Shown: piece after piece, positions 17,995 through 47,539 of the stretch
Position numbering within the stretch: the first letter of the stretch is position 1
Layout: each line of letters starts with the position of its first letter
NCBI RefSeq assembly: GCF_018614525.1
Contig: NZ_JAGGOL010000023.1
Coordinates: forward strand, 1 to 47,539
Length of the DNA: 47,539 bases
From: Streptomyces sp. ISL-11
GTDB lineage: Bacteria; Actinomycetota; Actinomycetes; Streptomycetales; Streptomycetaceae
Direction: 5' to 3'
The notes under the pieces: generated by a model
Seen by the model: only the letters and a program-made list of their open reading frames with translations
Told to the model about the DNA's origin: nothing
The model's database searches: none
Program-made: the position numbers and the translations under genes

Positions 17995-19308
17995 TTAGGG
18001 CACCGGCCCACGGTACGCGGATGCCCCGGGCGCCGGAGAGAGGGCGCGGGCCGGCACCCCTTGTCCCAGGGGTGCCTCGTCGAACCGTCTGCGCACGTAG
18101 GACAGGTCGTCGAGCAGTCCGGCCGAGGTGACCCGGCGGGGGCGGTCGCGGGCCACGAGGCCGCCGATCGGCAGGCGCCCGATCCGGTCCCAGCGAAGCC
18201 GTCCGCTGTCGTCTATATAGCTTCTGGTCTCGCCCCGGTTGTCCGGGTGCAGGCAGTAGGGAATGTCGAGATATCCGGCCCGGAAAGCCAGCAGCAGTGC
18301 CTGCCCGACGTCCGCGTGGAGACCGAGGACGGCGTGCACGAGGGCCGCCGCCTCCTGATAGGTCTGGCTGTCGGCCCCCTCCGCGGCACGGGGCCGGGCC
18401 GCCCGGGCGGTGCTGGAGGCGTGCTCCAGCGCGCGGACGTTCTCGGCGACGGTGGGGATGCGGCGGGACTCCGCCTCGGTCTTGACGATCAGTCGCTCGG
18501 ACCCGGTGGCCACCGCCAGCTCGGCGGCCTCCCCCAGCAGCCGCAGGGCGCCGTGCGAGGTCTGCGGGTACAGGCCCATGTACGCGTAGACGACGACGTG
18601 CCAGTTGTCGGTGGGCAGCAGTTCCGCGCACAGCCGCCGCAGGGCGGCGACGGCCTCGCGGTCCTGTCCGGCGTGGGTTTGTTGGGCGTAGCTGACGGAG
18701 ACGCTCCGCAGGCCGTGCCGGACGAAGAACAGCGCCTCCAGGACGCTGATGGCGACCAGCTGGCTCGGTGGGCACAGCTGCCCGAGCATGCAGCCGCCGA
18801 AGGTCTCCAGGTGCGGCTCGGCGCCGTGCTCCCGCAGCCCGAGGAAGAGCTCGCAGCTCTCCTCCCAGTTGCGCACGGAGTCGCGCAGCGGGGTGCGCCC
18901 GTAGGGCAGGCAGTAGGAGACCGGCCCGCCCTCGCTGGCGTCGAGCCACAGCCGGTTCAGGGCGCGGAAGATGTCGGCGGGGGTCGCGGACCCGTGCCGG
19001 ACCTGGACGGGGAAGCCTGCGTCGCGGATGCCGGCAAGCACCCACCGTGTGGTGTCCGCGTCGTGGCTCACGACGGGGTAGCCGTTGAGGTCGATGCCGT
19101 CGCGCAGCGCGCTCTCGACCGCCGCGAGGTGACCGACCCGGGTGTGGGCGTCCAGGGTGATGGTGCCGACGGTGGTGGCCCGGGCGGCCCGGGTGGCGGC
19201 CAGGCCGTCCCGCATCCGCCGCGGGTCGCTGAAGCCCATACGCGGCTGGACCACCAGGTGTCCCTCACCCGCCCTGGCCCGGACGAAGGCGCCGAAGTCC
19301 ACGCTCAT
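17995..19308 (-). CDS. glmE: Glutamate mutase (methylaspartate mutase) epsilon subunit
   Basis: This 437-residue TIM-barrel subunit of adenosylcobalamin-dependent glutamate mutase converts L-glutamate to (2S,3S)-3-methylaspartate. The N-terminal RAGEGHLVVQPRMGFSDP, then LDAHTRVGHL, DGIDLNGYPVVSHD, QVRHGSATPADIF and ETFGGCMLGQLCPPS match the family. It overlaps the small B12-binding subunit by four bases (ATGA), so the two are made together. In vicenistatin-type pathways this enzyme starts the route to the beta-amino acid unit, and the next genes here continue that route. It ends the 13-gene operon with TAA, 40 bp before the GlcNAc-1-P transferase. Confidence 0.92.
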   Translation of the reverse strand: MSVDFGAFVRARAGEGHLVVQPRMGFSDPRRMRDGLAATRAARATTVGTITLDAHTRVGHLAAVESALRDGIDLNGYPVVSHDADTTRWVLAGIRDAGFPVQVRHGSATPADIFRALNRLWLDASEGGPVSYCLPYGRTPLRDSVRNWEESCELFLGLREHGAEPHLETFGGCMLGQLCPPSQLVAISVLEALFFVRHGLRSVSVSYAQQTHAGQDREAVAALRRLCAELLPTDNWHVVVYAYMGLYPQTSHGALRLLGEAAELAVATGSERLIVKTEAESRRIPTVAENVRALEHASSTARAARPRAAEGADSQTYQEAAALVHAVLGLHADVGQALLLAFRAGYLDIPYCLHPDNRGETRSYIDDSGRLRWDRIGRLPIGGLVARDRPRRVTSAGLLDDLSYVRRRFDEAPLGQGVPARALSPAPGASAYRGPVP

Positions 19309-19793
19309 ACGGCTCGCGCCTCCCCCGTCAGGACGGGGGCGGGCCCCGGCAGTGCGGCGATGAAGTGCTGCAGGGCGGCGACGGGGTCCGAGCCGTCGTC
19401 GAAGACGGCGTCGAACCCCGCCGCCATCAGCTCCCCGGCCCGGGAGGCGTCACCCTCGTCGGTGACGCCGAGCTTGCCCCCGATGACGGCCGGGGTGGAG
19501 CGCAGCCCGGCCACGCCCCGCAGCCGCTCGATGACGCGCAGGCCGTCCTGGTAGCCATGGCCGTTGACGCTGCTGAAGACGATCAGCGCCGGGTCGAGGT
19601 CCGCGCAGCGGGAGACCAGCAGCTCGTCGGGGACGCACGGGCCGAGGTTCACCACGCGGTACCCGAGCTCCTCGATCAGCAGTTGCAGGAACACCAGGTT
19701 CCAGGTGTGGGCGTCCGAGGCCATCGACGTCACGACGACGCAGCCGCCACGGGGCTCGGGCGCCGTCTCCCAGCGGTCGAGCGCGTCACCCAT
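19305..19793 (-). CDS. glmS: Glutamate mutase sigma subunit (B12-binding)
   Basis: A 162-residue cobalamin-binding subunit with a Rossmann-like fold. The lower-ligand motif normally reads DxHxxG; here it is S-D-A-H-T-W-N, so Asp and the Co-coordinating His are present but the glycine is Asn. Downstream, SSVNGHGYQDG and IGGKLGV fit the SxL and GG motifs. It is somewhat longer than typical (about 137-150), with a short N-terminal lead and a C-terminal tail. It overlaps the decarboxylase by eight bases and the epsilon subunit by four. It pairs with the epsilon subunit to make 3-methylaspartate. Confidence 0.9.
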   Translation of the reverse strand: MGDALDRWETAPEPRGGCVVVTSMASDAHTWNLVFLQLLIEELGYRVVNLGPCVPDELLVSRCADLDPALIVFSSVNGHGYQDGLRVIERLRGVAGLRSTPAVIGGKLGVTDEGDASRAGELMAAGFDAVFDDGSDPVAALQHFIAALPGPAPVLTGEARAV

Positions 19794-21078
19794 GCGCGTC
19801 CGTGTCCGCGCCGTCCGAGCCGTCCGCAGAGCCCCCGGCGGCCCCCAGCTCCTCGTGGACGCGCACGTGCGTGATCCGGGAGACGGAGAGCACCTCGCCG
19901 CCGCGCACCAGGGCCTCGGCCGGCGCGGGGCGGCCGAGGAACATCAGGAGGCTGGCGGTGGGCCCGTACGCCCCCGTGTTGGGGACGGCCACCACGTCGC
20001 CCGGGCGCAGCCCCGGCAGGTCGATCTCGCGGCCCAGCATGTCGCCGGGCGTGCACAGTGGCCCCACCAGGCTGGCCTTGTGCGTGGGCGCGCCGTCGGG
20101 CTCGACGTGCACCGAGACCGGGAAGATGCGGCCGAGGCCGGACATCCCGCCGAAGGTGTTGATGCCGGCGTCGACGACGACGAAGGTCTTGCCGCGGCTG
20201 ACCTTGACGTTGCTCACCGTCGTCAGCAGCGTGCCGGAGTCGCCCACCAGGTAGCGGCCCGACTCGACGGCCAGCTGGGGGAAGCCCTCGCGCCACCGCG
20301 GAAAGCGCTCGTCGAGGGCGGGCTCCAGCGCGGCGCGCAGATTCGGGTACGCGGCTCGCTCGCCGTGCTGCCCGTAGGGGGCCGCGAAGCCGCCGCCGAT
20401 GTCCAGGAGCCGCAGCGGTACGCCCAGCTCGTCCTGGATCCGTGCCGCCAGTTCGATGCTGTGCAGGAGCTCGCCGGTCAGGGCCTCCTCGTCGCGGGCG
20501 TTGCTCTGCGAGAACAGGTGCAGGCCCACGACGGTGGTGCCGGGCACGGCCAGGAAGCTCGGTGCCAGGTCGGCGACGGTCTCGCTGTCGATGCCGAACT
20601 GGGTGGGCTTGCCGGTCATCCTGATGCCGGTGGTGGCGCTCCCGGTGGCGCTGTTGATGCGCAGCAGGCAGTCGGCGACCACGCCCTGGGCGAGGGCGGC
20701 CTCGCCGATGTGCTCCAGGTCGGTGAGCGACTCGGCGGAGAACAGCCGCACCCCGGCGGCGACGGCCTCGCGCAGCTCGCCGGGCGTCTTGCCCGGGCCG
20801 GTGTAAAGGACGCTCGCGGGCTCGTACCCGGCCTCCAGGGCCGCCGCCAGCTCACCGGTGGAGCTGATCTCGGGCCGGCAGGCGGGGCCGTCGCCCTCGC
20901 GCAGCGCCCGGACGACGCCGGTGTGCGGGTTGGCCTTGAAGGCGTAGAAGACCTCGGTGCCCTCCGGCAGCCAGCGGAAGAGGTCCTCGCGGGCCGCGTC
21001 GAGGCGCTCGGCGTCGTAGACGTACAGGGGGGTGCCGAAGCGCTCGGCCAGCTCTGCGTGGGTGGTGTACCGGCTCAC
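19786..21078 (-). CDS. PLP-dependent decarboxylase, likely for 3-methylaspartyl-ACP (VinO-like)
   Basis: A 430-residue fold-type III decarboxylase of the diaminopimelate/ornithine decarboxylase group. The PLP lysine is Lys48 in VFYAFKANP. IGGGF binds phosphate, and the inter-subunit Cys is in SLVGPLCTPGDML. GAYG near the C-terminus is usual. In vicenistatin biosynthesis a member of this group (VinO) decarboxylates ACP-bound 3-methylaspartate to 3-amino-2-methylpropionyl-ACP. Placement between glutamate mutase and a VinN-like ligase argues for the same step. Relatives such as BtrK act in butirosin side-chain assembly. The GTG start overlaps the ligase stop (GTGA). The C-terminal 25 residues are low complexity. 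Confidence 0.85.
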   Translation of the reverse strand: MSRYTTHAELAERFGTPLYVYDAERLDAAREDLFRWLPEGTEVFYAFKANPHTGVVRALREGDGPACRPEISSTGELAAALEAGYEPASVLYTGPGKTPGELREAVAAGVRLFSAESLTDLEHIGEAALAQGVVADCLLRINSATGSATTGIRMTGKPTQFGIDSETVADLAPSFLAVPGTTVVGLHLFSQSNARDEEALTGELLHSIELAARIQDELGVPLRLLDIGGGFAAPYGQHGERAAYPNLRAALEPALDERFPRWREGFPQLAVESGRYLVGDSGTLLTTVSNVKVSRGKTFVVVDAGINTFGGMSGLGRIFPVSVHVEPDGAPTHKASLVGPLCTPGDMLGREIDLPGLRPGDVVAVPNTGAYGPTASLLMFLGRPAPAEALVRGGEVLSVSRITHVRVHEELGAAGGSADGSDGADTDAHG

Positions 21079-22622
21079 TTGTCGCCTCCGTCGAGCAGCG
21101 CCTGGAGTTCCTGGCGCGCGTTCTTGCCGTGCAACGTGAACGGGAAGTCGGTGAGGACCCGGCAGATCGCGGGCATCTTCGCGAGCTCCAGGCGGGCGCG
21201 GAGCTCGTCGACGACGGTGTTCGCGTCCAGGTCGGTCGCCACGAACAGGGTGAGGTCGTGCCGGTCGCCGGGCGGCAGCGCCGCGGCGGCCCGGACGCCC
21301 GGGATGTCCATGGCCGCGCTCTCGATCTCGAGCGTGCTCATGCGGAAGCCCTTGCGCTTGAACATGTCGTCGCGGCGGCCCTCGAAGTAGAGGTAGCCGT
21401 CGTCGTCGAGGCTGCCGTAGTCGCCGGTGTGCAGGCGGGCCTCGCCGGTGTGCGGGTCGCGGCGGAAGGTCCGCTCGGTCACCTCGGGGTTGCGCCAGTA
21501 GCCGCCCATCACATGGGGGCCGGCGGCGACGATCTCGCCCACTTCACCGGTGGGCACGGGCTCGCCGGCGTCGTCCAGGATCAGCACCCGGGTGCCGGGC
21601 AGGGGCAGGCCGACGGAGTCGGGCCGCTCCAGCTCCTCGTGCGGCGGCATGACGGTGATGCGCTTGGCCTCGGTCTGGCCGTACTGGCGGACGACGGTCG
21701 CGCCGGGGAAGTGCTTGCGGAGGGCGTCGATGGTGGTCTGCGGGAGCGCGGCCCCGGTGTTGGTGAACATCCGCACGGGCGGCAGGGCGCCGGCGGCCCG
21801 GCGGGCCAGGCCGGTGATCATGGTGGCGAGGGACGGGACGATGGGGACGACCGTCACCCCCGTCTCGTGCATCCGCTTGAGCAGCACGAAGTCGGACTCG
21901 CCGTCGGCCAGCACGATCTCGCAGCGTGCGACGCAGGTCATCAGGACCTTGTACAGGCCGTAGTCCCAGGACATCGGGAAGCGGCAGAAGACGACGTCGT
22001 CGGCGCGGTAGCCCAGTGCCTCGGTCAGCGCCCGCGACGCGAACGCCACCTGGCGGTGCGGGCTGATGACGGCCTTGGGGGCGGCGGTGCTGCCGGAGGT
22101 GTAGATCAGGGCCGCCACGTCGTCCTCGTGCACGGGACCGGCACTGTGGCGGGCCCCTGCCGCGTGCAGCTCCGCGACCTCGGTCCACAGTCCGGCGAGG
22201 TCGTGGACGGGGGCGTCGGTGACGCCGCGCAGGCGCTCGGTGCCGGCGGCGTCGGTGATGCCGAGGACGGGCTCGGCGTTGTCCACGACCGAGCGGAGGT
22301 GGAACTGCTTCATGGCCGGGTTCAGCGGGACGAAGACCGCGCCGACGCGTGCCGTGCCATGGAACATGGCGACCATCTCGCGGCTGCTGGGGAGCTGGAG
22401 CACGACGCGGTCGCCGCGCCGGACGCCCCGGGCGCGCAGCCAGGCGGCGAACGCGTGGCTGTGGTCCGCCAGTTCCCTGTACGTCCACATTCCGGCCGCG
22501 TCGCGGACCGCGGGGGCGCCGGGTGCCTCGGACACGGCGTCGTCGAGCAGGCTGTGGATGAGCTGACCCCCGGCGGGCGCTTCCCCGGCGTCAACACGTA
22601 TCGGATCGGAGTGGCTGTCCAA
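21075..22622 (-). CDS. VinN-like adenylation enzyme, probably 3-methylaspartate:ACP ligase
   Basis: A 515-residue stand-alone ANL-family ligase: ATP motif LIYTSGSTAAPKAV, YGQTEAKRIT, HTGDYG, and catalytic Lys500 in TLHGKN. Asp220 lies in SWDYGLYK and Lys320-Arg321 follow the YGQTE motif. From memory, VinN uses Asp230 for the amino group and Lys330/Arg331 for the side carboxylate of 3-methylaspartate; the same residues occur here at a constant offset of ten. With glutamate mutase and decarboxylase next to it, 3-methylaspartate is the best substrate guess. The start is TTG 22622 with only a weak GAGAG site, so the exact N-terminus is uncertain. Confidence 0.78.
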   Translation of the reverse strand: MDSHSDPIRVDAGEAPAGGQLIHSLLDDAVSEAPGAPAVRDAAGMWTYRELADHSHAFAAWLRARGVRRGDRVVLQLPSSREMVAMFHGTARVGAVFVPLNPAMKQFHLRSVVDNAEPVLGITDAAGTERLRGVTDAPVHDLAGLWTEVAELHAAGARHSAGPVHEDDVAALIYTSGSTAAPKAVISPHRQVAFASRALTEALGYRADDVVFCRFPMSWDYGLYKVLMTCVARCEIVLADGESDFVLLKRMHETGVTVVPIVPSLATMITGLARRAAGALPPVRMFTNTGAALPQTTIDALRKHFPGATVVRQYGQTEAKRITVMPPHEELERPDSVGLPLPGTRVLILDDAGEPVPTGEVGEIVAAGPHVMGGYWRNPEVTERTFRRDPHTGEARLHTGDYGSLDDDGYLYFEGRRDDMFKRKGFRMSTLEIESAAMDIPGVRAAAALPPGDRHDLTLFVATDLDANTVVDELRARLELAKMPAICRVLTDFPFTLHGKNARQELQALLDGGDK

Positions 22623-22712
22623 CGCTGATCTCTCATTTCTGAGCTGGTGCGGAGGGGGCCTGGGCCCCCGCTCTGGCCGTCGCGCGCCCCGTGGGGCCGC
22701 GCGCCGGCGGGG

Positions 22713-24293
22713 TCACCGGGCCGGCCTGCGCCGCGGTGCGAGGGCCTCGCGCAGGGCGAGACGGTCGGTCTTCCCGTTGGCGTTGAGCGGGAAGACGTCG
22801 TACGGGGTGAGGGTCTCGGGGACCATGTACGGAGGCAGAAGGGCGCCCAGCTCAGTGAGCAGCCGGCCGGGGTCCGGGTCGTCGCCGGTGCAGGCGGCGG
22901 CGAGGCGGGTGTCGCCGCGGGGCCCCTGGACGGTGACCACGGCCGCGTCCCGGACGCCGGGGAGGGCGCGCAGGGCGGTCTCGATCTCGCCGAGCTCGAC
23001 GCGGTAGCCGCGCACCTTCACCTGCTGGTCCAGCCGGCCGAGGTGGACGAGACCGGTGCGGGGGTCCTGGCGGACCCGGTCACCGGTGCGGTACCAGAGG
23101 CCGTCGGCCGGGGGCTGTGCCTCCTGGACGACGGTGGCCCGGCCGCCGTCGAAGCGGAGGAACCGGCCGGCGTTGTCCCGGGGGTCGAGGTAGCCGGGGA
23201 ACCGCTGGACGCCCCGGACGCACAGCTCGCCCTCGGTGGCCGGGTGGCCGTCCTCGTCGACGACGAGCTGTTCCAGGCCGGGGTAGAGGTGACCGATGGG
23301 CACGGTGTCGCCGGCCGGGGCCCCGCTGGGGGTGCCGGCCGGCGGCAGCCGGTACTGGGTGCAGCTGAGGGTGAGTTCGGTGGGCCCGTAGAGGTTCTCC
23401 AGGACGCTGCCGGGCGCGGCGGCCCGCCAGGCGGCGGCCTGGGCCGCGGTGAGGGGTTCGCCGCAGAACAGGCTCCACCGCAGGGTCGGCATGCTGTCCG
23501 GAGTCAGCCCGCGCAGCCGCATGGCGAAGGAGACCACCGAGGGCACGGAGAACCAGTGGGTGATGCGCTCGCGGGTGACGAAGCGAACGGGTGCGAGGAC
23601 GTCGTTGGCGTCCGGCACGACGAGCGTGGCGCCGGAGCCCCAGGTGGCGAAGAGGTCGAAGACCGACAGGTCGAAGGTGAGGTCGAAGGTCTGCGAGACC
23701 CGGGCGCCGACGCCCAGTTCGTACCGGCCGATGACGTGGCCGAGGTAGGCGGCCACGTTGCGGTGGAGGATCGGCACGCCCTTGGGGGTGCCGGTGGAGC
23801 CGGAGGTGAAGAGGATGTAGCAGGTGTCGGCCGGGTCCGGCCGGTGGGCCGGGGGCACGTCGGCGGCGCCGTTCGCCGGGAGCGCGGCCGCATCGGCGGT
23901 GAGCACCGGCGCGGGCAGTCCGGTGGTGTCGGCGCCGGGCTGGGCGAGCACCAAGTCGAGGCCGGCGGCCGCCGCGACGGCGGCGTTGCGGGCCGGCGGG
24001 AAACCGGGGTTGAGGGGCACGACGGTGGCGCCCAGGCGCTGGAGGGCCAGGTAGCCCGCGTAGGCGGTCAGGGTGCGGGCGGCGAGGAGCCCGGCCCGGC
24101 GGGGCGGCCGGCCGTCGGCCGCCGCGACGGCCTGGGCGGCCAGGTGCCCGGCGAGGGTCTCCAGCTCGGCGTAGGTGCGGCTGTCGCCCGCCACTTCGAG
24201 GGCCACGGCGGTGGGGTGGCGGCGTGCCGAGGCGGCGAACCACTCGTACAGGCCGCGGCCGTCCGCGGTCTGCGGGGCGGGGTCAGGCGTCAT
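22713..24293 (-). CDS. Stand-alone amino acid adenylation enzyme (VinM/DltA-like)
   Basis: A 526-residue ANL ligase with A-domain motifs LFTSGSTGTPKGV, QTFDLTFDLSVFDLF (Asp208 for the alpha-amino group), SLFCGEPL, NLYGPTELTLS, YRTGDRV, and catalytic Lys in NANGKTDRL. The FDLSVFDLF and FCGEPL patterns resemble D-alanine ligase DltA and VinM, which adds L-alanine to the beta-amino group of an ACP-bound starter as protection. The amino acid cannot be read reliably from the sequence. It overlaps the BtrH-like gene upstream by 11 bases and is separated from the VinN-like gene by 90 bp. It probably loads one of the free carrier proteins or acylates a carrier-bound amine. Confidence 0.75.
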   Translation of the reverse strand: MTPDPAPQTADGRGLYEWFAASARRHPTAVALEVAGDSRTYAELETLAGHLAAQAVAAADGRPPRRAGLLAARTLTAYAGYLALQRLGATVVPLNPGFPPARNAAVAAAAGLDLVLAQPGADTTGLPAPVLTADAAALPANGAADVPPAHRPDPADTCYILFTSGSTGTPKGVPILHRNVAAYLGHVIGRYELGVGARVSQTFDLTFDLSVFDLFATWGSGATLVVPDANDVLAPVRFVTRERITHWFSVPSVVSFAMRLRGLTPDSMPTLRWSLFCGEPLTAAQAAAWRAAAPGSVLENLYGPTELTLSCTQYRLPPAGTPSGAPAGDTVPIGHLYPGLEQLVVDEDGHPATEGELCVRGVQRFPGYLDPRDNAGRFLRFDGGRATVVQEAQPPADGLWYRTGDRVRQDPRTGLVHLGRLDQQVKVRGYRVELGEIETALRALPGVRDAAVVTVQGPRGDTRLAAACTGDDPDPGRLLTELGALLPPYMVPETLTPYDVFPLNANGKTDRLALREALAPRRRPAR

Positions 24294-25209
24294 GGTGCTC
24301 CCCCTGGGGCTCCAGGCGTCCGGCGGCGTCGATGACCCGGGCCAGGGCCTTCTCCACCAGGGCGGGCCGGGGCCGGCCCCGTTCGGCGGAGGCGAGGGCG
24401 AAGCGGATCGCGCGCGGGAGTTCCCCCCACGCGGCGACGGCCTCGGCGGTGGCCTCGGGTTCCTGCGGGCGGGCGGCCAGCAGGAACCGCTGGTGGCGGG
24501 CGGCCGTCCAGAGGTCGTCGGCGTGCCGGTCCAGGGCGGCGGGGTCCGGGCAGATGCGGTCGGCGACGTGGCGCAGCACGGGGACGGTGCCGTGCACCCA
24601 GATTCCTTCGAGGGCGCCGTCGTCCGGCTGCGGGGGCAGGGCGGCCCGCTCCAGCCAGCGGTGGCCGGCGGGGTCGGGCAGGTCGACGGGCCGGCCCAGG
24701 GCGTAGCGGTCGCGGTTGGCGGCCTCGGGGGTGAGGAGGCTGAGGGGCGTCAGCAGGCGGCGGAGCTCCTCGTCGTCGAGCAGCCCGGCCCAGGGGGTCT
24801 GTTCGCCGTGCGGGGTGAGGGCCTCGAAGTCGTCGCGGACGGACCACTTGCCGTCGGCGTGGCCGTGGATCAGCAGCCAGTGGGGCGTCTCGCCCTGTTC
24901 GTGGGACGGCGACCAGGGGATGTGGCGGGTGTTGCCGATGGCGAGGACCCGTCCGTGTCGCCGGAGTTCGGCTTCGAGGGCGGTGCGGGTGTCCGTCCAG
25001 CCGGTGGCGCCGCGGTAGGCCAGGCCGTGGCCGTCGGCGCCGATGTCGACGCGGGTGTGGTGGGCGAACGCCGTGCCGCCCTCCGGGGGGTCGGTGCGGA
25101 CCGACAGCCGGACGGCGTCCGCGAAGTCCTCGATGACGGCCGGGGCCTCAGGGGCGAGGTACGCCACCAGGTTCGCGGTGTAGCAGCTCAGTTCCCATGG
25201 CTCGTTCAC
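24283..25209 (-). CDS. BtrH-like papain-fold acyltransferase/hydrolase
   Basis: A 308-residue protein of a family that resembles the N-terminal domain of butirosin acyltransferase BtrH. A possible catalytic triad is visible: Cys9 in ELSCYTANLVAYL, His110 in GETPHWLLIHG and Asp126/127 in WSVRDDF. The spacing and the NTRHIPWSP segment fit papain-like enzymes that bind a substrate amine. BtrH moves an aminoacyl group from a carrier protein to an amine. A like role here, on the beta-amino starter or an amino sugar, is inference. The GTG start overlaps the PPTase stop (GTGA). The C-terminal 100 residues are helical and of unknown use. I am unsure of the family name but fairly sure of the Cys-His-Asp layout. 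Confidence 0.55.
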   Translation of the reverse strand: MNEPWELSCYTANLVAYLAPEAPAVIEDFADAVRLSVRTDPPEGGTAFAHHTRVDIGADGHGLAYRGATGWTDTRTALEAELRRHGRVLAIGNTRHIPWSPSHEQGETPHWLLIHGHADGKWSVRDDFEALTPHGEQTPWAGLLDDEELRRLLTPLSLLTPEAANRDRYALGRPVDLPDPAGHRWLERAALPPQPDDGALEGIWVHGTVPVLRHVADRICPDPAALDRHADDLWTAARHQRFLLAARPQEPEATAEAVAAWGELPRAIRFALASAERGRPRPALVEKALARVIDAAGRLEPQGEHHDA

Positions 25210-25847
25210 GCGGCCTCCTGAAAGGTGCTCGCTGCGGGCGGCTCGGCGAACGCGCAGCTCAGTGGTACGGGGGAATGCTCACGCAGGCTCACCCACCGGT
25301 AGGCGCCCCAGCTGCCCAGGCGGGTCAGGGGGGTTACGTCGATGGCCCAGGGGCGGCCGGAGAGGCCGGTGCCGGCGGCTTTGACGCACGCTTCCTGGAC
25401 GGTCCACACCCAGGCGAACTCCAGGTTGCGGCGGGCGGGCGGCAGGCGGTCGAGGACGGGGGCGTGCTGTTTGAGGCAGCGGCGCAGCAGGCCGGGCCGG
25501 AGGACCTCGGGGGCGTGCTGGATGTCGACGCCGACCGCGCGGTCCCGGGCGGCGCAGGCGGCGCCCAGCTCGCCGTCGTGGGAGACGCTGATGTCGATCC
25601 GGGGCAGGCCGGCCAGTTCCGGGCGGCCGTGCGGGCCGTAGACCACGCGGGCCCGGGCGGCCTCGGGGAAGCGGGCGGTGAGCAGGTGGCGCAGGGCGGA
25701 CCGCCCGGCGAGGTGCTGGGCGGCCTGCCAGCCGGGCAGCCGTCCGGCGCCGGCGAGGTCCTCGTCGGTGAGGAGGTGCCGGGCCGGGGGTCCCTGGTGG
25801 GTGGCCACCCAGATGCCGGGGGCCGCCTCGACGGTCCGCGGGGTCAT
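25206..25847 (-). CDS. 4'-phosphopantetheinyl transferase (Sfp type)
   Basis: A 213-residue enzyme that transfers phosphopantetheine from CoA to carrier-protein serines, needed here for the three stand-alone or fused ACP domains and the PKS. Motifs: ISVSHDGELGAACA, AVGVDIQ with the Mg-binding Asp, and WVWTVQEACVKAAGTGL with the conserved Glu and Lys. Gln replaces the usual Lys of KEA, which is tolerated in actinobacterial members. It overlaps both neighbours by four bases and so belongs to the starter-unit operon. Confidence 0.9.
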   Translation of the reverse strand: MTPRTVEAAPGIWVATHQGPPARHLLTDEDLAGAGRLPGWQAAQHLAGRSALRHLLTARFPEAARARVVYGPHGRPELAGLPRIDISVSHDGELGAACAARDRAVGVDIQHAPEVLRPGLLRRCLKQHAPVLDRLPPARRNLEFAWVWTVQEACVKAAGTGLSGRPWAIDVTPLTRLGSWGAYRWVSLREHSPVPLSCAFAEPPAASTFQEAA

Positions 25848-26929
25848 GGCGCGAGCCCGTTCAGGACGGCGTCGAGGCGGTCGGCGACGGTGTCGAGGAC
25901 CACTTCGGTGGTGCCGCCGCCGATGCCGAACACAGCCGCTTCGGCGCGGAGTTGCTGGATGCCGCCGGTGGCGAACCCGTCGGCGCCCTGGAGCTGCGCG
26001 CAGGTGGTGAGCACGCTCTCGACGGTGGTGCCGGAGGCGGCCTTGAGTACCGCGGCGGCGGTGCTGTCCCGGTCGGTGGCGATGCTCTCACGGGAGTGCG
26101 TCCACAGAGCGTCGAGGGAGGCGGCCTGGACGGCGCAGCCGGCCAGGCGCTGCCGGACGCTCGCGGATCGGCTCAGCGGGACGTCCGCCACGAGCCGCTC
26201 CCGCAGCAGGCGTTCGGTGTCGGTGATCACTCTCCGGCACAGGGCGATCGCCCAGGCGGCCGAGGCGAGCCGTTCGACGGCGATGTGCCGGGCGAAGAGG
26301 GCGAGCGCGCGGCCGGGGCGGCCCAGGAGGTGCTCACGGGAGAGCGTGACGTGGTCGAGCTCCAGGTGGCCGACGCCGGAGCCCTCGAACATGGCGGTGT
26401 CCGCGGGGCGGGCGGTGACCCCCGGCGCGGACAGCGGGACGAGCACCCAGCTGAAGCTGGTGAAGTGCCGGCCGGGCCGGTGGCGTGCCAGGACGAGGGC
26501 GTGGTCGGCGGTCAGGGCGGAGGTCACCCAGCGCTTGGTGCCGTGGACGACGAGGTCGCCGCCGTCCTCCCCGAGGTCCACGGTGGTGCCGAGGGCGGTG
26601 AGGTCGGAGCCGGCCGTCTCGTCCGTGGCGGCGAGGGCGAGCAGGGCCGTGCCGTCCAGGGCCTCCCGCAGGATCCGCTGCGCCAGGGGCGAGGTGGCGG
26701 TCTCCGTCAGCAGGGGTACGGCCGTGGCGAGCTGGACGAGCAGGGCCAGGACGGTGCCCTGGGGGCCGCGCGCGTCGGCTTCGGCGAGGATCCGCCGGAG
26801 GACCAGCGGGTCGAGCCGGCCGGCCGGCCGCCGACTGTAGAGCGCGGCGAGCTCCCCCGCCCGGGCAAGCGCCGAGACGATGTCCTTCGCCTCGGCGCCG
26901 GCGGGCGGCCCGGTGGGCGCCTCAGGCAA
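25844..26929 (-). CDS. Acyl-CoA/acyl-ACP dehydrogenase-like flavoprotein (second)
   Basis: A 361-residue protein with the acyl-CoA dehydrogenase fold: ATDETAGSDLTALGT and TKRWVTSA in the middle, and a C-terminal helical domain ending GIGGGTTEV. Gly replaces the MCAD-type catalytic Glu there, but HIAVERLASAAWAIAL offers a Glu at the alternative isovaleryl-CoA-dehydrogenase position, so it may be active. It probably oxidises a carrier-bound amino acyl or acyl group. It starts at TTG 26929, supported by GGAGG six bases upstream, and overlaps the first dehydrogenase by eight bases. The two may form a heteromer. Confidence 0.75.
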   Translation of the reverse strand: MPEAPTGPPAGAEAKDIVSALARAGELAALYSRRPAGRLDPLVLRRILAEADARGPQGTVLALLVQLATAVPLLTETATSPLAQRILREALDGTALLALAATDETAGSDLTALGTTVDLGEDGGDLVVHGTKRWVTSALTADHALVLARHRPGRHFTSFSWVLVPLSAPGVTARPADTAMFEGSGVGHLELDHVTLSREHLLGRPGRALALFARHIAVERLASAAWAIALCRRVITDTERLLRERLVADVPLSRSASVRQRLAGCAVQAASLDALWTHSRESIATDRDSTAAAVLKAASGTTVESVLTTCAQLQGADGFATGGIQQLRAEAAVFGIGGGTTEVVLDTVADRLDAVLNGLAP

Positions 26930-28103
26930 AACGCACCTCCGGGTCGAGCAGGGCGAGCCTGCCGTCGGCCAGGTGGAGCCGGTCGTTGCCGTAGTTCAGG
27001 GCGGCCGAGCGCAGGTCGCGCAGGGCCCGCTCCAGCCCGGTCGGGGAGTCCTTGAGGTAGCCGTGGCGCAGGCCGACGGCGTCGATGAGGTCCTCGACCG
27101 CCCGGTGGCACTCCTCGGACGCGGTGATCTTCAGCGAGTTGATCAGCAGCTGGTACCGGGGGCGGGACACGTCGTCGCCGTCGGCCCGCACCTGGGCGAG
27201 GACGTCGGCGGTGTGCCGCATCAGGGCGTGCACGCTCTCCAGCCGCTGCCGGGACCGGGAGAGGCGGGAGAGCAGCAGCTCGGAGTCGAGGCCGTTCCTG
27301 CGCCCGGCGGGGGTGCGGAGCATGCGCAGCACCCGGGAGAGGGCGCCGGCGGCGGTGCCCAGCCAGGAGGCGGACCAGCCGAGGTGGGCCATCGGGCTGA
27401 ACGTCTCCAGGACGATCTTCCGGAACTGGCCGTGCTCGCCGACGACCTGGTGTCCGGGGACGCGGCCGGTGAGCTGGAGCGCGGTGCTGTGGCTCGCGCG
27501 CATGCCGAGCGGGTTCCACTCGCCGGAGGGCGTGACGGTCAGCTGGTCGCGGTGCGCGTACACCAGGGAGACCTCGCCGGGCGAGCGGGCCTCGGGGCTG
27601 AGCATGGTGATCAGGAAGCCGTCGGCGTGGCTGCCGCCGGTGACGATCGGCGCGAACCGGTCGATGTCCAGGTGGCCGTCCCCGGCGGCGAGTTCGGCCT
27701 CCGAGGTGAGGAGGTGGCCGCCCTTGCCGGCTTCGGTGGTCACCGAGGCGAGGTACATCCGGCCGGCGGCGATCTCGGGGAGCAGTTCCCCGGCGAGCCG
27801 CTCGCCGGCGTGCCGGACGACGCCGGCGACCTGCTGGCAGTGCATCGAGTAGATCATCGCGACGGACATGTCGGCGCGGCCGAGGGCGATGCTGACGTCC
27901 AGCATGTCGTCGACGCTGCCGCCGAGGCCGCCGTGTCCGGTGGGGACCAGCAGGCCGAGCAGGCCGGTGCCGCGGAGCGCGTCGAGGACGTCGGCGGGGA
28001 ACTCGGCCGCCTCGTCGGTGGTCCGGGCGTTCTTCTCCGCCAGGGCGCGGACCTCGGCGACCGCGTCCGCGAGGTCCGGGCGGACGTCCTGCCGGGCGCT
28101 CAT
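26922..28103 (-). CDS. Acyl-CoA dehydrogenase-fold flavoprotein lacking the catalytic glutamate (first)
   Basis: A 393-residue protein with the acyl-CoA dehydrogenase fold: LLGLLVPTGHGGLGGS, ASVTTEAGKGG, NPLGMRASHS, and a helical C-terminus ending GLERALRDLRSAALNYGNDR. At the place of the catalytic Glu (YEGT in MCAD) it reads YGND (371-374), and the alternative isovaleryl-type site (AHLGWSASW) has no Glu. It may act as an oxidase, an oxygenase-like enzyme, or a structural partner of the second dehydrogenase. ATG 28103 overlaps the ACP stop (ATGA) and is preferred to an upstream GTG at 28139 inside the ACP gene. Confidence 0.75.
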   Translation of the reverse strand: MSARQDVRPDLADAVAEVRALAEKNARTTDEAAEFPADVLDALRGTGLLGLLVPTGHGGLGGSVDDMLDVSIALGRADMSVAMIYSMHCQQVAGVVRHAGERLAGELLPEIAAGRMYLASVTTEAGKGGHLLTSEAELAAGDGHLDIDRFAPIVTGGSHADGFLITMLSPEARSPGEVSLVYAHRDQLTVTPSGEWNPLGMRASHSTALQLTGRVPGHQVVGEHGQFRKIVLETFSPMAHLGWSASWLGTAAGALSRVLRMLRTPAGRRNGLDSELLLSRLSRSRQRLESVHALMRHTADVLAQVRADGDDVSRPRYQLLINSLKITASEECHRAVEDLIDAVGLRHGYLKDSPTGLERALRDLRSAALNYGNDRLHLADGRLALLDPEVRFA

Positions 28104-28342
28104 ATCGCCTCGGGCATCGCGCCGGACACCGCGCCCCACAGCTTGCCCGCGGTGCTGAAGGTCTCCTCGGTGAGCAGCTCGTCGGGGAGTTCGACGCCGA
28201 AGGTGTCCTCGACGGCGAACATCAGCTCGATGGCCTGCATGGAGTCGAGGCCGAACTCACGCAGCGGCGTCTCGTCCGTGAGGGGGTGATCGTTGAGGTA
28301 GGGGAGGAAGGGCGTGAGTATCTCGGTAAAGCGGGCGTCCAC
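28100..28342 (-). CDS. Free-standing acyl carrier protein (ACP-A)
   Basis: An 80-residue carrier protein. Helix I begins ARFTEILTPFL, and the phosphopantetheine site is Ser34 in REFGLDSMQAIELMFAVED. The acidic helix II and a C-terminal helix are normal. GTG 28342 is preceded by AGGA at six bases; the frame is open further upstream but without similarity. It overlaps the following dehydrogenase gene by four bases. As the only free ACP here with a classic DSM motif it is the best candidate to carry 3-methylaspartate for the decarboxylase (VinL-like role), by inference. Confidence 0.88.
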   Translation of the reverse strand: MDARFTEILTPFLPYLNDHPLTDETPLREFGLDSMQAIELMFAVEDTFGVELPDELLTEETFSTAGKLWGAVSGAMPEAI

Positions 28343-28386
28343 GGTGAATCCTGCGCCTTTCTGAGTCCTATGTCCTGAAGTTCGGT

Positions 28387-29559
28387 CTACGGCCGGGGGC
28401 CGTCGAGTGCGCGGCCCACCAGGGCGCACAGATCGCTGATGCGGTGCAGCTTCTCGGGCACCAGGTCGGCGGCCTCGAATTCCACCTGGAACTCCGTTTC
28501 CAGGCACTCCACGATCTCGACCATGCGCAGGGAGCTGAATGCCGGGAGGCCGGTCAGCTCCGTCTCCGGCAACTGGTCCTCGTCGAGGCCGAGAACGGAG
28601 GCGACGACCTCGCGCACCGTGGCGCGGAGCCGGTCGTCGACAGCGGCGTGTTCGCCTTCCGTCCGTGCTTCCGATGGGGTGCCGCCGAGGGCGGTGGCAT
28701 CGGCGTGGAGCACCTCGCCGGCCCGGTCGAGCAGCTCGGGCGGCTCCGCCCGGCCGCGGGCGACGCGGCGGAAGGCCAGGTAGGCGTGCTCGACGAGGCC
28801 GTCCCAGCGGGCGAGGTGCTCCCGCACGAGCCGGGGCTCGGCACCGGCCGCGCCGGCGGCGTAGGCGGCGTGCAGCCGCCGGGTGCGGGCGAGCAGCCAG
28901 GTCTCCAGCGTGAACTGCTCCAACGCCTGCGGCCGGTCAGTGTGTTCGGTGAAGGCCCGCAGGTAGTCCGTCACGCACCGCGCGTCGAGCGTGCGCTCCG
29001 GGGCGGGGGCGTCACCGAGGGGTCCGGCGGTGAGCCGGACCACCTCGGCACCCTCGGGTATCGCGTCGAGGGCGGCGGCCAGTTCGGCGCGCTCGTAGCG
29101 GAGTTGGACGGGCCTGGCGCGGCCCCACTGGGTGTCGTTGTGGTAAGCGTCGCTGACGGTGATGCCGGTGCCGTCGTCCTCCGGCTCCACCAGGAAGCTG
29201 TGTTCGACGTGCTTGTTCCCGAAGTACGGTCCCCACGGCAGGTGGTAGGCGTCGGCGACGACGTAGAGGAGCTCGTCCGTGGCGGCCACCTTCGTACCGG
29301 GCACCCCTTGCTCGCGGCTCTCCACCACCAGGCCCAGCAGATCCCGAGCGTCCGCCAAGTGGTCGTCCAGGGAGGGCTCGACGGTGGGCAGGCCGTGCTG
29401 CCCGGGGCGGGGGGCGAAGCCCAGGCGCGCCCCGAGGCGGAGGTGGGTGCCGGGCCCGTGGAGCCGGTCCGCGAGGAGGCCGAGGTTGGCCTGGAGGCAG
29501 TCGAGCAGCTCGGCTCGTACGGCCGGCTCCGGCGCCGGCTCGGTCGTCGGCGCGGTCAC
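28387..29559 (-). CDS. BtrH-like papain-fold domain fused to an acyl carrier domain
   Basis: A 390-residue two-domain protein. The N-terminal 290 residues resemble the BtrH-like protein at 24283-25209. Triad candidates are Cys21 in LLDCLQANLGLL, His120 in KHVEHSFLV and Asp137 in TVSDAY; the HLPWGPYFG segment corresponds to HIPWSP of the other. The last 80 residues (about 312-385) form an ACP: VREVVASVLGLDEDQL, then LPAFSSLRMVEIVECLETEF with Ser343 at the phosphopantetheine position (SSL in place of DSL). An acyl group could be held in cis for transfer. GTG 29559 has GGAGG four bases upstream and overlaps the ACP-B stop (GTGA). A 44-bp gap follows before ACP-A. Confidence 0.65.
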   Translation of the reverse strand: MTAPTTEPAPEPAVRAELLDCLQANLGLLADRLHGPGTHLRLGARLGFAPRPGQHGLPTVEPSLDDHLADARDLLGLVVESREQGVPGTKVAATDELLYVVADAYHLPWGPYFGNKHVEHSFLVEPEDDGTGITVSDAYHNDTQWGRARPVQLRYERAELAAALDAIPEGAEVVRLTAGPLGDAPAPERTLDARCVTDYLRAFTEHTDRPQALEQFTLETWLLARTRRLHAAYAAGAAGAEPRLVREHLARWDGLVEHAYLAFRRVARGRAEPPELLDRAGEVLHADATALGGTPSEARTEGEHAAVDDRLRATVREVVASVLGLDEDQLPETELTGLPAFSSLRMVEIVECLETEFQVEFEAADLVPEKLHRISDLCALVGRALDGPRP

Positions 29560-29822
29560 GGCGCCTCCGGGGCGGTCACCAGGTCGATGAGGTCCTGGAC
29601 GCTCTTGAGGCTGCGGCCGGCGAACACGTCGTCGGGGACGGCGTCCCCGAACTCGTCCTCCAGCCGGGTGAGGATGCCGAGCAGCGCCATGGAGCTGACC
29701 TTGAGCAGGCCGCCGTCGAGCGGCTCGTCGTCGGGCACGTCGGCCACTGCGGCGGGGCACCGTGCCTCGTCGAGGACGATGCGCTTGACGGTCTCGGCGA
29801 CCGTGTCGTGGCGCGCGGTCAC
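29556..29822 (-). CDS. Free-standing acyl carrier protein (ACP-B)
   Basis: An 88-residue carrier-like protein with the four-helix pattern: TVAETVKRIVLDEA, then LLKVSSMALLGILTRLEDEFG and a C-terminal LKSVQDLIDLV. The prosthetic-group serine should be Ser44 in VSSM; the usual preceding Asp is Ser, as in the fused ACP nearby. The GTG start overlaps the KAS III-like gene stop (GTGA). Next to that acyltransferase, it is a likely donor or acceptor in an acyl shuttle, much as CloN1/CloN2 act in aminocoumarin pathways. Confidence 0.82.
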   Translation of the reverse strand: MTARHDTVAETVKRIVLDEARCPAAVADVPDDEPLDGGLLKVSSMALLGILTRLEDEFGDAVPDDVFAGRSLKSVQDLIDLVTAPEAP

Positions 29823-30862
29823 TTCGGCTCACCCCACGAGGGGACCTCGGTGATCGTCAGGATGCAGGAGGAGCAGATCCACCCGGGGCCCTGGGACGTC
29901 ATCAGGACGTTGTCGCCCGGCTGCAGCTGACCGGTGCGGGCGAGGTGGTCGAGGGTGATGAAGATGTCGGCGCCGCCCGAGTGGCCGACCGACTTCCCGA
30001 ACTCCGCGCACAGCCGGTCCGCGGGAATGCCCAGGGGTCGCATGAGGGCCTGGTCGATCATCCGGCTGTCGACGTTGATCGTGATGACCTTGGTGATGTC
30101 CTCGGCGGTCATGCCGGCATCGACCAGGGAATCGTTGATAACGCCCAGATCGAATTTGAAAAAGCTCTCGAAGAGCTGCGGGAGCGGCATTTCATTGTCG
30201 ATGAAATGCTGCGAGCGCTCGCCCATGTTGAAGTGCTTGGAGGATTCTCCGCGAGGCGGCAGAAGCGATTCCTCACCGCGATGCCACTTCTCCAGCTCAT
30301 GCAGCGTTCCGGAATTCATGGACCGGACCTTGGCGAATCCGCCGGCACTGTTGACCACGGCCGCGGCGGCACCGTCGGAGTAGACGGAGTTGGTGCCGAA
30401 GTCCATCCACCGGTTGAACAGCGGGGTGGTGAAGTTGGAGGCCGTGGTGAGCAGCACGTTCTGCATCTTGGCAGCGCCGGTCAGCTGGCCGATGGCGACC
30501 TCCAGGGCACCCAGCATGCCATTGCAGCCCTGCTGGATGTCAAAGGAGTTGATGTTCCCGGTGCCGAGCTCGCGGAGGATGTAGCCGGGCGCGTAGGCAC
30601 CCTCGGGCACCTGGTAGTAGACGCTGCCGTGGATGTGCGAGTCGATGTCGGCGGTGTTCGCGGAGGACCGCTCGATAGCGCTGCGAGCTGCGGAAACAGC
30701 CATGTCGACGGCCGGGGTGTCACCAGCGAGGTAGGTGCCGGTCAGCCCGGCGGCCTTGAACTCGCCCCGCTGGTAGTCGCCGATCCCCTCCGCGTCGTCC
30801 ACGCTCACCCAGTCCGGCAGGTGCACGCCGACAGAGCTGATGTACACGTCCTCGACCCGCAT
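29819..30862 (-). CDS. KAS III-like acyltransferase with altered active site
   Basis: A 347-residue thiolase-fold protein. The nucleophile is Cys113 in FDIQQGCNGMLGAL. The two other residues of the condensing-enzyme triad are changed. The usual HQAN region reads TINVDSRMID, so His is lost and Asp265 is near. The usual GN(T/S) region reads VGHSGG, giving His294 in place of Asn. This Cys-His-(Asp) arrangement is like the CerJ/ChlB3/CloN2 group, which transfers acyl groups to another carrier or to a sugar and does not condense. It heads the operon, so the whole set is probably read from its promoter. ATG 30862 has GAGGGG eight bases upstream. It could take the place of the VinK acyltransferase (inference). 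Confidence 0.8.
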   Translation of the reverse strand: MRVEDVYISSVGVHLPDWVSVDDAEGIGDYQRGEFKAAGLTGTYLAGDTPAVDMAVSAARSAIERSSANTADIDSHIHGSVYYQVPEGAYAPGYILRELGTGNINSFDIQQGCNGMLGALEVAIGQLTGAAKMQNVLLTTASNFTTPLFNRWMDFGTNSVYSDGAAAAVVNSAGGFAKVRSMNSGTLHELEKWHRGEESLLPPRGESSKHFNMGERSQHFIDNEMPLPQLFESFFKFDLGVINDSLVDAGMTAEDITKVITINVDSRMIDQALMRPLGIPADRLCAEFGKSVGHSGGADIFITLDHLARTGQLQPGDNVLMTSQGPGWICSSCILTITEVPSWGEPK

Positions 30863-31167: not shown

Positions 31168-31773
31168 ATGGATGCACAAATCGATCCCGGCGCCGAGGTC
31201 GACAAGCGGGCCGGAGTGGGCGCCGGGACGGTCGTCTGGGGCCTGGCGCATATCCGGGAGGACGCGGAGGTCGGCCGTGACTGCAGCATCGGACGCGGCG
31301 CGTACATAGGCCCCGGGGCGACCCTCGGGGACAACTGCAAAGTCCAGAACTTCGCCCTCGTCTACGAGCCGGCCCGGGTGGGCGACGGCGTCTTCATCGG
31401 CCCCGCCGCCGTCCTCACCAATGACTCCTACCCCCGTGCGGTCACCCCGGAAGGGGTGCCGAAGGGGGCCGGGGACTGGACTCCGGTCGGGGTGACGGTC
31501 CGCGACGGCGCCTCCATCGGCGCCCGCGCGGTCTGTGTGGCCCCGGTGACCGTGGGCCGCTGGGCGACGGTCGCGGCCGGCTCGGTGGTCACCCGTGACG
31601 TACCCGACTTCGCCCTGGTCGCCGGTGCCCCGGCCCGCCGGATCCGGTGGGTGGGCCGGGCCGGCGTACCGCTGCGCGAGAACGACGACGGCGACTTCGT
31701 CTGCCCGTCCACCGGTGAGCGGTACACCGAGCGGGACGGCGTCCTCCGTCTCGACGGCGAAGCCGCCGCCTGA
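31168..31773 (+). CDS. NDP-3-amino-sugar N-acetyltransferase (left-handed beta-helix)
   Basis: A 201-residue hexapeptide-repeat protein. Repeats such as VGAGTVVWGLAHI, CSIGRGAYIGPGATLGDN and VGDGVFIGPAAVLTNDSYPR build a left-handed beta-helix trimer that uses acetyl-CoA. The VYEPARVGDGVFIGP..LTNDSYPR pattern is typical of WlbB/QdtC-type acetyltransferases acting on 3-amino-sugar nucleotides, which suggests that the aminotransferase product here carries its amine at C-3. The C-terminal FVCPSTGERYTERDGVL tail occurs in relatives. It is the only plus-strand gene of the cluster and ends 28 bp from the convergent 2,3-dehydratase gene. ATG 31168 is supported by GAGGAG. Confidence 0.85.
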   Translation: MDAQIDPGAEVDKRAGVGAGTVVWGLAHIREDAEVGRDCSIGRGAYIGPGATLGDNCKVQNFALVYEPARVGDGVFIGPAAVLTNDSYPRAVTPEGVPKGAGDWTPVGVTVRDGASIGARAVCVAPVTVGRWATVAAGSVVTRDVPDFALVAGAPARRIRWVGRAGVPLRENDDGDFVCPSTGERYTERDGVLRLDGEAAA

Positions 31774-31801
31774 CCCCCGCACCGGCCCCACGCCCGCCCC
31801 G

Positions 31802-33223
31802 TCAGCCCAGGCTGTGCAGGCAGGCCAACAAGGTCCGCGCCTGGACGCTGACGTAGTGGCCGTGCCGCAGCAGCCCGCTCAGCTGCGGCAGGGTGAACCA
31901 CGCGCAGTCGTCGGGGATCTCGGCGGGGAACGAGTCGTCCGCGCGGACGATCAGGTGGCGGCCGACCGCGTTCAGGAAGCGCCCGCCCTCCTCCGAGTGC
32001 ACCACGTCGTACAGGACGCGGGACGGGTCGGCGGCCAGGACGTGGTCCAGCAGGTGCGGCCGGTGCGCCGGGTCGTAGTTCTCCGGGACGCACTGCACGG
32101 TGGGACCCAGCTCCACGGTCTCGCGGAAGCCGGGCTCGGCCCGGGCCCGCATCAGCAGGTGGAGGACCCCGCCGAACTCCCGGACGACGAAGGCGACGAC
32201 GCCCGGGCCGCGGGGGGCGAACAGCGGCTGGCTCCAGCCGGTCACCTCCCGGCTGCCGGCCTCGACCGACACCGCCTGGACGCTGAAGAACCGCCCGTCC
32301 TCACGGGCGATCTCGTCGGCACCCCGGTGCCAGCCGGCGCCCTCGGTCTCCCGCAGCGGGACGCGGTCCGTCTCGACCTCGCGGTCGCTGCGCTGCCCGG
32401 TGATCCAGCTCAGCAGCTCGGGCGTGGGAGTGAGCGCCCCGCCCGCGCCGGGCTCGTGGTCCCGCCCGTGGGACAGGAACGGCGCCAGGCACGACAGCAC
32501 CGTGCGGGAGTCCATGTTGACGACGTTGTCCCGGCCCAGCAGCGTGTTGATCTGCCCGAGCGTCAGCCAGCAGAAGTCGTCGCCGACGGGCACGTCGGCG
32601 TCCGTTTCCACGAGCATGTTGCGGTTGTGCTTGCGGTAGAACCACGCGCCGTGCTCGGACTGCAGGACGTCGGCGACGACCCGGCCGCGGCCCGGCCCGG
32701 CGAAGTGCTCGATGTAGCGGACGGCCGCCCCCCGGTGCACCCGGGTGTAGTTGCTGCGGGTGGCCTGGACGGTGGGCGAGAGCTGGAGCAGGTTGGTGTT
32801 GCCGGGCTCCATCTTCGCCTGCATCAGGAAGTGCGGCACCCCGCCGAAGTCCTTCATCAGGATGCCGAGGATGCCGACCTCGGGCTGGTTGATGACGGGC
32901 TGGTGCCAGGCGCGGTACGGGCCGCGGTCGGAGCGGACCCGCAGGCCCTCGACGGTGAAGAACCGCCCGCTGCGGTGGCCGAGGTTGCCGGTGGCCGGAT
33001 CGAAGCTCCAGCCGTCGGCCGCGGCGAAGGGGATCCGTTCGACGCGGAACGGGTGGGCCCCCCGGCGCCCCTCCAGCCAGTCGTCGAACTCGGCGGTGGG
33101 CAGCAGCACCCCGTCCACGGCCCGCGCCGAGAGCGCCAGCCGGGCGGGCAGGCCTGGGTCCTCACCGGGGCTCAGCACGGAAGCGGTGCCCGCCGGGGTG
33201 CCCGGAAGCGTCGGTGTGCTCAT
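31802..33223 (-). CDS. NDP-hexose 2,3-dehydratase
   Basis: A 473-residue enzyme that removes the C-2 hydroxyl of dTDP-4-keto-6-deoxyglucose, giving a 3,4-diketo-2,6-dideoxy sugar. It shows the internal duplication of this family: GGVPHFLMQAKMEPGN..LSPTVQATRSNY in the first half and GGVLHLLMRARAEPGF..LGPTVQCVPENY in the second. ATG 33223 overlaps the rfbB stop by four bases; the longer upstream frame only shadows rfbB. It is the last gene of the sugar operon and establishes a 2-deoxy sugar. Confidence 0.93.
   Translation of the reverse strand: MSTPTLPGTPAGTASVLSPGEDPGLPARLALSARAVDGVLLPTAEFDDWLEGRRGAHPFRVERIPFAAADGWSFDPATGNLGHRSGRFFTVEGLRVRSDRGPYRAWHQPVINQPEVGILGILMKDFGGVPHFLMQAKMEPGNTNLLQLSPTVQATRSNYTRVHRGAAVRYIEHFAGPGRGRVVADVLQSEHGAWFYRKHNRNMLVETDADVPVGDDFCWLTLGQINTLLGRDNVVNMDSRTVLSCLAPFLSHGRDHEPGAGGALTPTPELLSWITGQRSDREVETDRVPLRETEGAGWHRGADEIAREDGRFFSVQAVSVEAGSREVTGWSQPLFAPRGPGVVAFVVREFGGVLHLLMRARAEPGFRETVELGPTVQCVPENYDPAHRPHLLDHVLAADPSRVLYDVVHSEEGGRFLNAVGRHLIVRADDSFPAEIPDDCAWFTLPQLSGLLRHGHYVSVQARTLLACLHSLG

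Positions 33224-39992: not shown

Positions 39993-47539
<7,547 letters not shown>

Follow-up and report, generated by a model that had tools for sequence, protein, structure and literature searches.

A gene cassette of Streptomyces sp. ISL-11 that may make a capped dehydro-beta-amino acyl unit for a glycosylated macrolide

Introduction

Beta-amino acyl units built on carrier proteins are described for several biosynthetic pathways, some of which share much of their enzymology with a 13-gene cassette of Streptomyces sp. ISL-11 that we analyzed here. The cassette lies on the minus strand at positions 17995-30862 of contig NZ_JAGGOL010000023.1 (assembly GCF_018614525.1), and “the window” denotes the whole stretch analyzed, 47,539 bases. 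The vicenistatin starter pathway, as covered by the cited parts of a review (PMC11284099), has a mutase, VinN-, VinO- and VinM-type enzymes and a discrete acyl carrier protein (ACP), all with counterparts in the window; capping by VinM is presented there as protection of the amine. The window differs from it in that no VinK/VinJ-type gene was found in the cluster, in having a polyketide synthase (PKS) primed by a KSQ domain, and in its additional flavoproteins of the acyl-CoA dehydrogenase (ACAD) fold, BtrH-fold proteins and ketoacyl synthase III (KAS III)-like enzyme.

Two other systems bear on the later steps. For bolagladin (BolO/BolC/BolN/BolQ, with the KAS III enzymes BolM and BolP), passages of PMC7756342 propose VinN-type loading of aspartate, BtrK-like decarboxylation, N-acylation and desaturation by an ACAD; deletion of the ACAD gene bolQ led from dehydro-beta-alanine to beta-alanine. 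VinN-type loading, a BtrK-like decarboxylase dependent on pyridoxal phosphate (PLP), an ACAD and KAS III-like genes are thus common to bolagladin and the window, whereas aspartate as proposed precursor, the fatty acyl cap and the nonribosomal peptide synthetase (NRPS) as destination are not, and those passages mention no mutase or BtrH-fold protein. For AFC-BC11 (AfcQ/AfcK/AfcP/AfcE/AfcL), the cited passages of PMC12186527 report that loading, decarboxylation and capping were reconstituted, and that AfcL, a KAS III-like enzyme with Cys, His and Asp, accepted beta-alanyl thioesters and transferred the chain; its authors consider that an enamine without a cap could fall apart. Shared with the window are the VinN-type A domain, the carrier, the decarboxylase, an expected dehydrogenase and the KAS III-like acyltransferase, while AFC-BC11 differs in its iterative trimer, fatty acyl cap, lysine acceptor and aspartate precursor. 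Streptomyces compounds with dehydro-beta-alanine also include the enamidonin/autucedine lipopeptides (cited passages of PMC11204786), a likeness of compounds, not of compared gene sets.

Gene content and proposed pathway

The gene set of bolagladin and AFC-BC11 (VinN-type ligase, BtrK/VinO-type decarboxylase, carrier, ACAD and KAS III-like enzyme) is found together in the window. Given these enzyme classes and the glutamate mutase beside them, we predict the alpha-methyl homologue of the unit made in those pathways: the cassette likely makes a capped alpha-methyl-dehydro-beta-alanyl-ACP that would acylate a KSQ-primed, glycosylated macrolide. Taken with all its parts jointly, we place this reading just on the probable side.

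An earlier note on this DNA, made from the sequence alone, had described a 13-gene set, mostly with overlaps of 4-11 bases. Its coordinates and strand were verified, and 9 of the 12 gene junctions overlap by that length, so that one transcript is likely. Genes of the cassette are given below in gene order, followed by the rest of the cluster in the window.

29819-30862, minus: KAS III-like acyltransferase, CerJ/ChlB3 type (ChlB3 E=3e-61, CerJ 9e-43; Cys and GHxGxxD shared with both)
29556-29822, minus: ACP1, discrete carrier protein (PF00550 E=4e-4)
28387-29559, minus: BtrH-ACP, BtrH-fold protein with a C-terminal carrier domain, ACP2 (AlphaFold2 model, pLDDT 90; Foldseek AziU3, CtaG, CcbD; PP-binding E=4e-6)
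28100-28342, minus: ACP3, discrete carrier protein, DSM motif (PF00550 E=1e-10; Ser in 52/52 aligned; open reading frame to 28507, start uncertain)
26922-28139, minus: ACADa, ACAD-fold flavoprotein without Glu at either usual catalytic position (PF02771/PF08028; A251, G384)
25844-26929, minus: ACADb, ACAD-fold flavoprotein with Glu at the alternative base position (PF02770/PF00441; E219 in 50/50 aligned)
25206-25847, minus: 4'-phosphopantetheinyl transferase, PPTase (PF01648 E=2e-7)
24283-25209, minus: BtrH2, BtrH-fold papain-like acyltransferase/amide synthase (AlphaFold2 model, pLDDT 92; Foldseek AziU3/CcbD/CtaG; C9/H110/D126 conserved)
22713-24293, minus: VinM/IdnL7-type amino acid adenylating enzyme, for the aminoacyl cap (6akd E=1e-93)
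21075-22622, minus: VinN-type beta-amino acid:ACP ligase (3wvn E=2e-195; D220, R321, Thr289)
19786-21078, minus: PLP decarboxylase, VinO/BtrK type (PF02784/PF00278, E=1e-34; Lys48 in 49/49 aligned)
19305-19793, minus: MutS, mutase S subunit, B12-binding (PF02310 E=1e-11; MutS models below cut-off)
17995-19308, minus: MutE, methylaspartate (glutamate) mutase E subunit (PF06368 E=7e-75; sole PF06368 match in the genome)
within 31168-39956, plus: sugar block, hexapeptide acyltransferase (order matched in S. himastatinicus)
within 31168-39956, minus: sugar block, NDP-hexose 2,3-dehydratase, glucose-1-phosphate thymidylyltransferase, DegT aminotransferase, glycosyltransferase, NAD epimerase/dehydratase, MGT-type glycosyltransferase (order matched in S. 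himastatinicus)
39993-47537, minus: last PKS modules and thioesterase (TE), DH-KR-ACP-KS-AT-DH-ACP-TE, open at the contig end

A gap of 90 bases separates VinM and VinN. The BtrH-ACP/ACP3 junction length hinges on the start of ACP3, for which the GTG at 28342 fits best, and the ACP3/ACADa junction length on the start of ACADa. The note's other assignments, which were a glutamate mutase, a PLP decarboxylase, a VinN-like ligase, a KAS III-like acyltransferase, three carrier domains and two dehydrogenase-fold flavoproteins, were borne out by the matches above: Pfam found PP-binding in all three carrier domains, ACAD domains in both flavoproteins, and two AMP-binding enzymes (E=3e-80 and 8e-62).

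The first steps would follow vicenistatin. The top PDB matches of the VinN-like ligase are 3wvn and 3wv4, which we take to be VinN structures. In the alignment, the equivalents of VinN D230 and R331 are kept as D220 and R321, and the counterpart of S299 is Thr289; the roles of Asp230 and Arg331 in VinN are described in a passage of PMC7756342. Their retention suits loading of aspartate or 3-methylaspartate through the side-chain carboxyl. The second AMP-binding ligase matches 6akd, presumably IdnL7, the VinM counterpart of incednine; prediction of its substrate is limited to this similarity.

Each reaction of the following scheme, as well as the order and the acceptor, is a proposal read from gene content, predicted folds, catalytic residues, cluster borders, KSQ loading and recurrence. 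Glutamate mutase would supply 3-methylaspartate. Once the PPTase had armed ACP3, the VinN-type ligase would load 3-methylaspartate through its beta-carboxyl, and the decarboxylase would give 3-aminoisobutyryl-ACP3. The VinM-type enzyme would then put an amino acid, probably alanine, on the free amine, stabilising the next product; since an uncapped enamine could fall apart, as the AFC-BC11 authors consider, the cap may have a further use in this pathway. ACADa and ACADb would take two hydrogens off across C-alpha and C-beta, leaving an enamide, and the two BtrH-fold enzymes may pass the unit from carrier to carrier or couple it, one of them onto its own fused carrier. Finally, the KAS III-like enzyme would move the N-aminoacyl alpha-methyl-dehydro-beta-alanyl unit onto the glycosylated macrolide.

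Cluster borders and PKS loading domain

The window is one contig (C137; C and L numbers are our labels for contigs and loci), the left part of which carries the ATP synthase operon and a wecA-like gene. The order in S. himastatinicus is ATP synthase, wecA-like gene, cassette, sugar genes, PKS, four genes (3HCDH, ACAD, HAD-type, O-methyltransferase) and glyA. Placed on the S. himastatinicus PKS by alignment, contigs C136, C76, C38 and C111 of our genome fall one after another (aligned blocks >500 bases counted), apart from certain C136 blocks that match similar modules out of order. Stretches of 0.2-1.9 kb of that PKS separate the aligned blocks of one contig from those of the next, and unaligned contig ends cover part of them. 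On C111 the start of the PKS adjoins glyA, which scans as serine hydroxymethyltransferase (SHMT, E=7e-131). Because glyA adjoins the wecA-like gene in relatives (11/12 of the same genus and 3/7 more distant ones examined), the cluster appears to be an island between these two genes. The cassette with KAS gene, sugar genes and terminal PKS also occur all together in Streptomyces sp. DSM 15324, where the mutase side showed no wecA-like gene. S. tailanensis has its wecA-like gene on the glyA side, and its decayed-looking copy of the cassette sits at the same chromosomal site. The four genes at the PKS end of S. himastatinicus occupy 3696354-3700439 (L097; the HAD-type gene is FkbH-like by reading), and on C111 the PKS start and glyA lie too close together to hold them.

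The S. himastatinicus PKS, which holds runs of N and whose module 1 is incompletely read, starts with KSQ-AT-ACP. Its KS reads VDTGQSSS (Cys-to-Gln) and its AT has the motif HAFH, which usually denotes a malonyl-specific AT. The PKS gene of C111, a contig tied to the cluster by synteny with S. himastatinicus, carries the same KSQ signature VDTGQSSS. The PKS therefore owns a separate loading domain. We hold it very probable that the beta-amino unit is not the PKS starter, and fairly probable that it decorates the macrolide.

The absence of VinK and VinJ from the window, seen in the earlier note, extends beyond it, and the suggestion that both genes might lie outside did not hold. PF00698, to which we take VinK to belong, has 38 matches in the genome, 34 of them in frames of at least 1,119 aa and two in contig-edge pieces (C37, C136); of the other two, C196 holds an AT+ACP gene and C144 a 403-aa frame, presumably FabD. 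No VinK-type gene was found in the cluster by this genome scan and the gene lists. TIGR01250, assumed here to be the VinJ type, gave 15 genome matches, none over the cut-off and none on the cluster contigs, so no VinJ-type gene was found either. The S. himastatinicus gene list, which was read as a list and not scanned gene by gene, shows neither VinK nor VinJ. On these scans and gene lists, a VinK/VinJ pair hidden outside the window was rejected. The AT-ACP gene of C196 is followed by a large gene that reads as similar to polyunsaturated fatty acid (PUFA) synthase (L034:9690-15925), a separate cluster.

BtrH-fold proteins and KAS III-like acyltransferase

The earlier note had also proposed two BtrH-like papain-fold proteins, for which predicted structures and a Cys-His-Asp set speak, while Pfam support is weak. 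PF14399 (BtrH_N) matched neither protein of the window, be it at the gathering score, at E<=1 or in the scan of its own genome; at E<=1 it appears in 6/24 and 3/24 aligned relatives of the two. The AlphaFold models (pLDDT 92.1 for BtrH2 and 90.4 for BtrH-ACP) both have AziU2-U3, CcbD and CtaG as top Foldseek matches in PDB, with best E of 8e-10 (BtrH2) and 1e-7 (BtrH-ACP) and modest TM-scores, about 0.4-0.6. The Cys, His and Asp are kept in 39/40, 40/40 and 40/40 aligned sequences of BtrH2, and in 51/52, 51/52 and 52/52 of BtrH-ACP. The models thus support the BtrH fold for both proteins, and the roles given to them above are guesses from this fold. Compared with the BtrH/CcbD/AziU3/CtaG family, which they resemble in predicted fold and Cys-His-Asp set, the window differs by having two copies, one of them fused to a carrier, without a PF14399 match.

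Aligned with ChlB3 and CerJ, the KAS III-like protein shares with them the catalytic Cys and the His and Asp of the GHxGxxD motif, and acyl transfer is its putative activity. An unassigned gene of S. caniferus encodes a protein 53% identical to it; for the PM100117 cluster of S. caniferus, the cited passages of PMC4763440 suggest that KAS III genes help handle the acyl group that ends on the macrolide.

Recurrence of the cassette in other genomes

An alignment of BtrH-ACP scanned against GTDB genomes gave 56 actinobacterial loci, mostly without mutase. The counts below refer to 49 of these whose downstream sequence runs to at least 9 kb (the other 7 had <9 kb), and to hits over >60% of the query length. 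For core genes, ortholog-level identity and a position inside the cassette were required, which removed cross-hits (NRPS A domains as VinM, VinM as VinN); mutase, ACP1 and KAS counts come from a tally without this removal. ACP3 was found in 46 loci, ACADa in 46, ACADb in 45, VinM in 44, VinN in 45, VinO in 44, PPTase in 36 and BtrH2 in 35, and 38 of the 49 have ACP3, ACADa, ACADb, VinM, VinN and VinO all together. Rarer are ACP1 (20 loci), mutase E (4), mutase S (3) and the KAS III-like gene, which is present in only two other loci, both macrolide clusters, and is the part peculiar to such clusters.

Identities of VinN and VinO form two groups: 59-80% in five loci and 28-47% in the others, where the lowest values are cross-hits. 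The mutase loci, four in all, belong to the first group, whose fifth member, Lentzea (L041), has no mutase in view. Extra genes of the majority type, with families assigned from scans of one or two representatives, are PALP-family (TrpB-like, 21 loci), aldehyde-dehydrogenase-family (ProA-like, 18), NRPS C-A-T (14) and flavin reductase (13). A second cassette, of the majority type, lies in the genome of the window itself (C141:33001-53000, L151) beside an NRPS gene, with VinN/VinO 44% identical to those of the window; an adenylation-domain gene and ProA-like and TrpB-like genes can be read from its sequence. In Amycolatopsis bartoniae, a mutase-bearing cassette lies in a 61-kb stretch without any KS, AT or condensation-domain match, where the NRPS matches are its own VinM and VinN only. 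By reading, that cassette (L043 with L119 and L120) has genes like those of cobalamin biosynthesis to one side, and its MutE is followed by an EamA-like transporter. Within the genus, 33 of 392 sampled genomes, that of the window included, have a BtrH-ACP match, in loci of about 4 kb that are too short for judging whole cassettes.

Tentatively, actinobacteria may carry a widespread and portable dehydro-beta-amino-acid machine fitted to NRPS, PKS or stand-alone settings, to which the window would add a mutase and KAS III-like grafting onto a macrolide, a building block and route not yet described. Should the enamide unit prove real, it would be a reactive, rarely seen building block from a compact gene set, assayable and reusable. 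VinN- and VinM-type genes, with VinK, serve as search keys for macrolactam clusters (cited part of PMC10662134); as VinN/VinM-type genes point to a pathway of a different kind here, searches of this sort could assign clusters wrongly.

Alternative readings

Several points weigh against the proposed pathway. BtrH2 is absent from 14/49 loci and is thus not required everywhere. S. tailanensis (L059:9165-17770) has neither ACP3 nor either ACAD, in a locus with a truncated BtrH-ACP that looks decayed. The likeness of ACADa and ACADb to BolQ and AfcE is one of enzyme class, and desaturation is a prediction from sequence. The acceptor is likely an aminosugar amine or a hydroxyl; no cap-removing hydrolase was seen among the genes; and an open-access literature search gave no paper on the gene set, no known product and no matching compound, with nothing returned for the methylated enamide acid under five spellings. 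Finally, ACADa resembles DszC/SfnB-type oxygenases, and a flavin reductase gene (PF01613, from a scan of two representatives) lies directly after VinM in 8 loci and after BtrH2 in 3.

These last two observations bear on what the flavoproteins do. Their Pfam matches are complementary (the N-terminal domain in ACADa only, the middle domain in ACADb only) and they co-occur in 45/49 loci, which suggests a heteromer; probably they form one, with the base in ACADb. Its Glu219 is at what we take to be the isovaleryl-CoA dehydrogenase-type base position. Desaturation by the pair is somewhat likely. The pair might instead be a flavin-dependent oxygenase, hydroxylating or N-oxidising the capped beta-amino unit (BtrO reportedly hydroxylates in butirosin): an oxygenase role would suit the reductase gene adjoining VinM or BtrH2 in 11 loci, and ACADa has lost both usual Glu positions. 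However, ACADb is nearest to the NCBIfam model of prolyl-PCP dehydrogenase, with MbtN also matched (all below cut-off), and keeps the alternative base; there is no flavin reductase among the cassette genes of the window; and the close functional precedent, bolagladin, is a desaturation in the passages cited above. Oxygenation is unlikely, if the strongest of the alternatives. The flavin reductase of majority-type cassettes (e.g. L042:19902-20396) would lack an explanation were the ACADs simple dehydrogenases. Pyrrole- or azetidine-type chemistry was considered for the ACADs and dropped, without supporting evidence.

Acylation of the macrolide, as favoured here, also competes with the idea that the cassette makes a small product of its own as a mere neighbour of macrolide genes. 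The A. bartoniae copy without PKS or NRPS would suit this, as would the second cassette of this genome beside its NRPS gene. Yet cassette, sugar genes and PKS follow the same order here as in S. himastatinicus and, with the terminal PKS, stay together in DSM 15324, they form one island between chromosomal genes, and the added KAS gene is of an acyltransferase type, which leaves an independent product improbable. The earlier note's beta-amino starter operon, in which the cassette feeds the PKS and KAS III and BtrH proteins stand in for VinK/VinJ, fares worst and is very improbable: its vicenistatin-type chemistry stands for the first steps (mutase, decarboxylase, VinN, VinM), giving 3-aminoisobutyrate and aminoacyl capping, and the PKS has a terminal TE, but the KSQ loading domain in two genomes speaks against starter use, and a mutase-bearing cassette without PKS, related cassettes beside NRPS genes and the scarcity of the KAS gene (2/49 other loci) argue the same way.

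To the left of the ATP synthase operon, the window also encodes a chitinase of family 18 that carries CBM2 and fibronectin type III domains (5525-7846).

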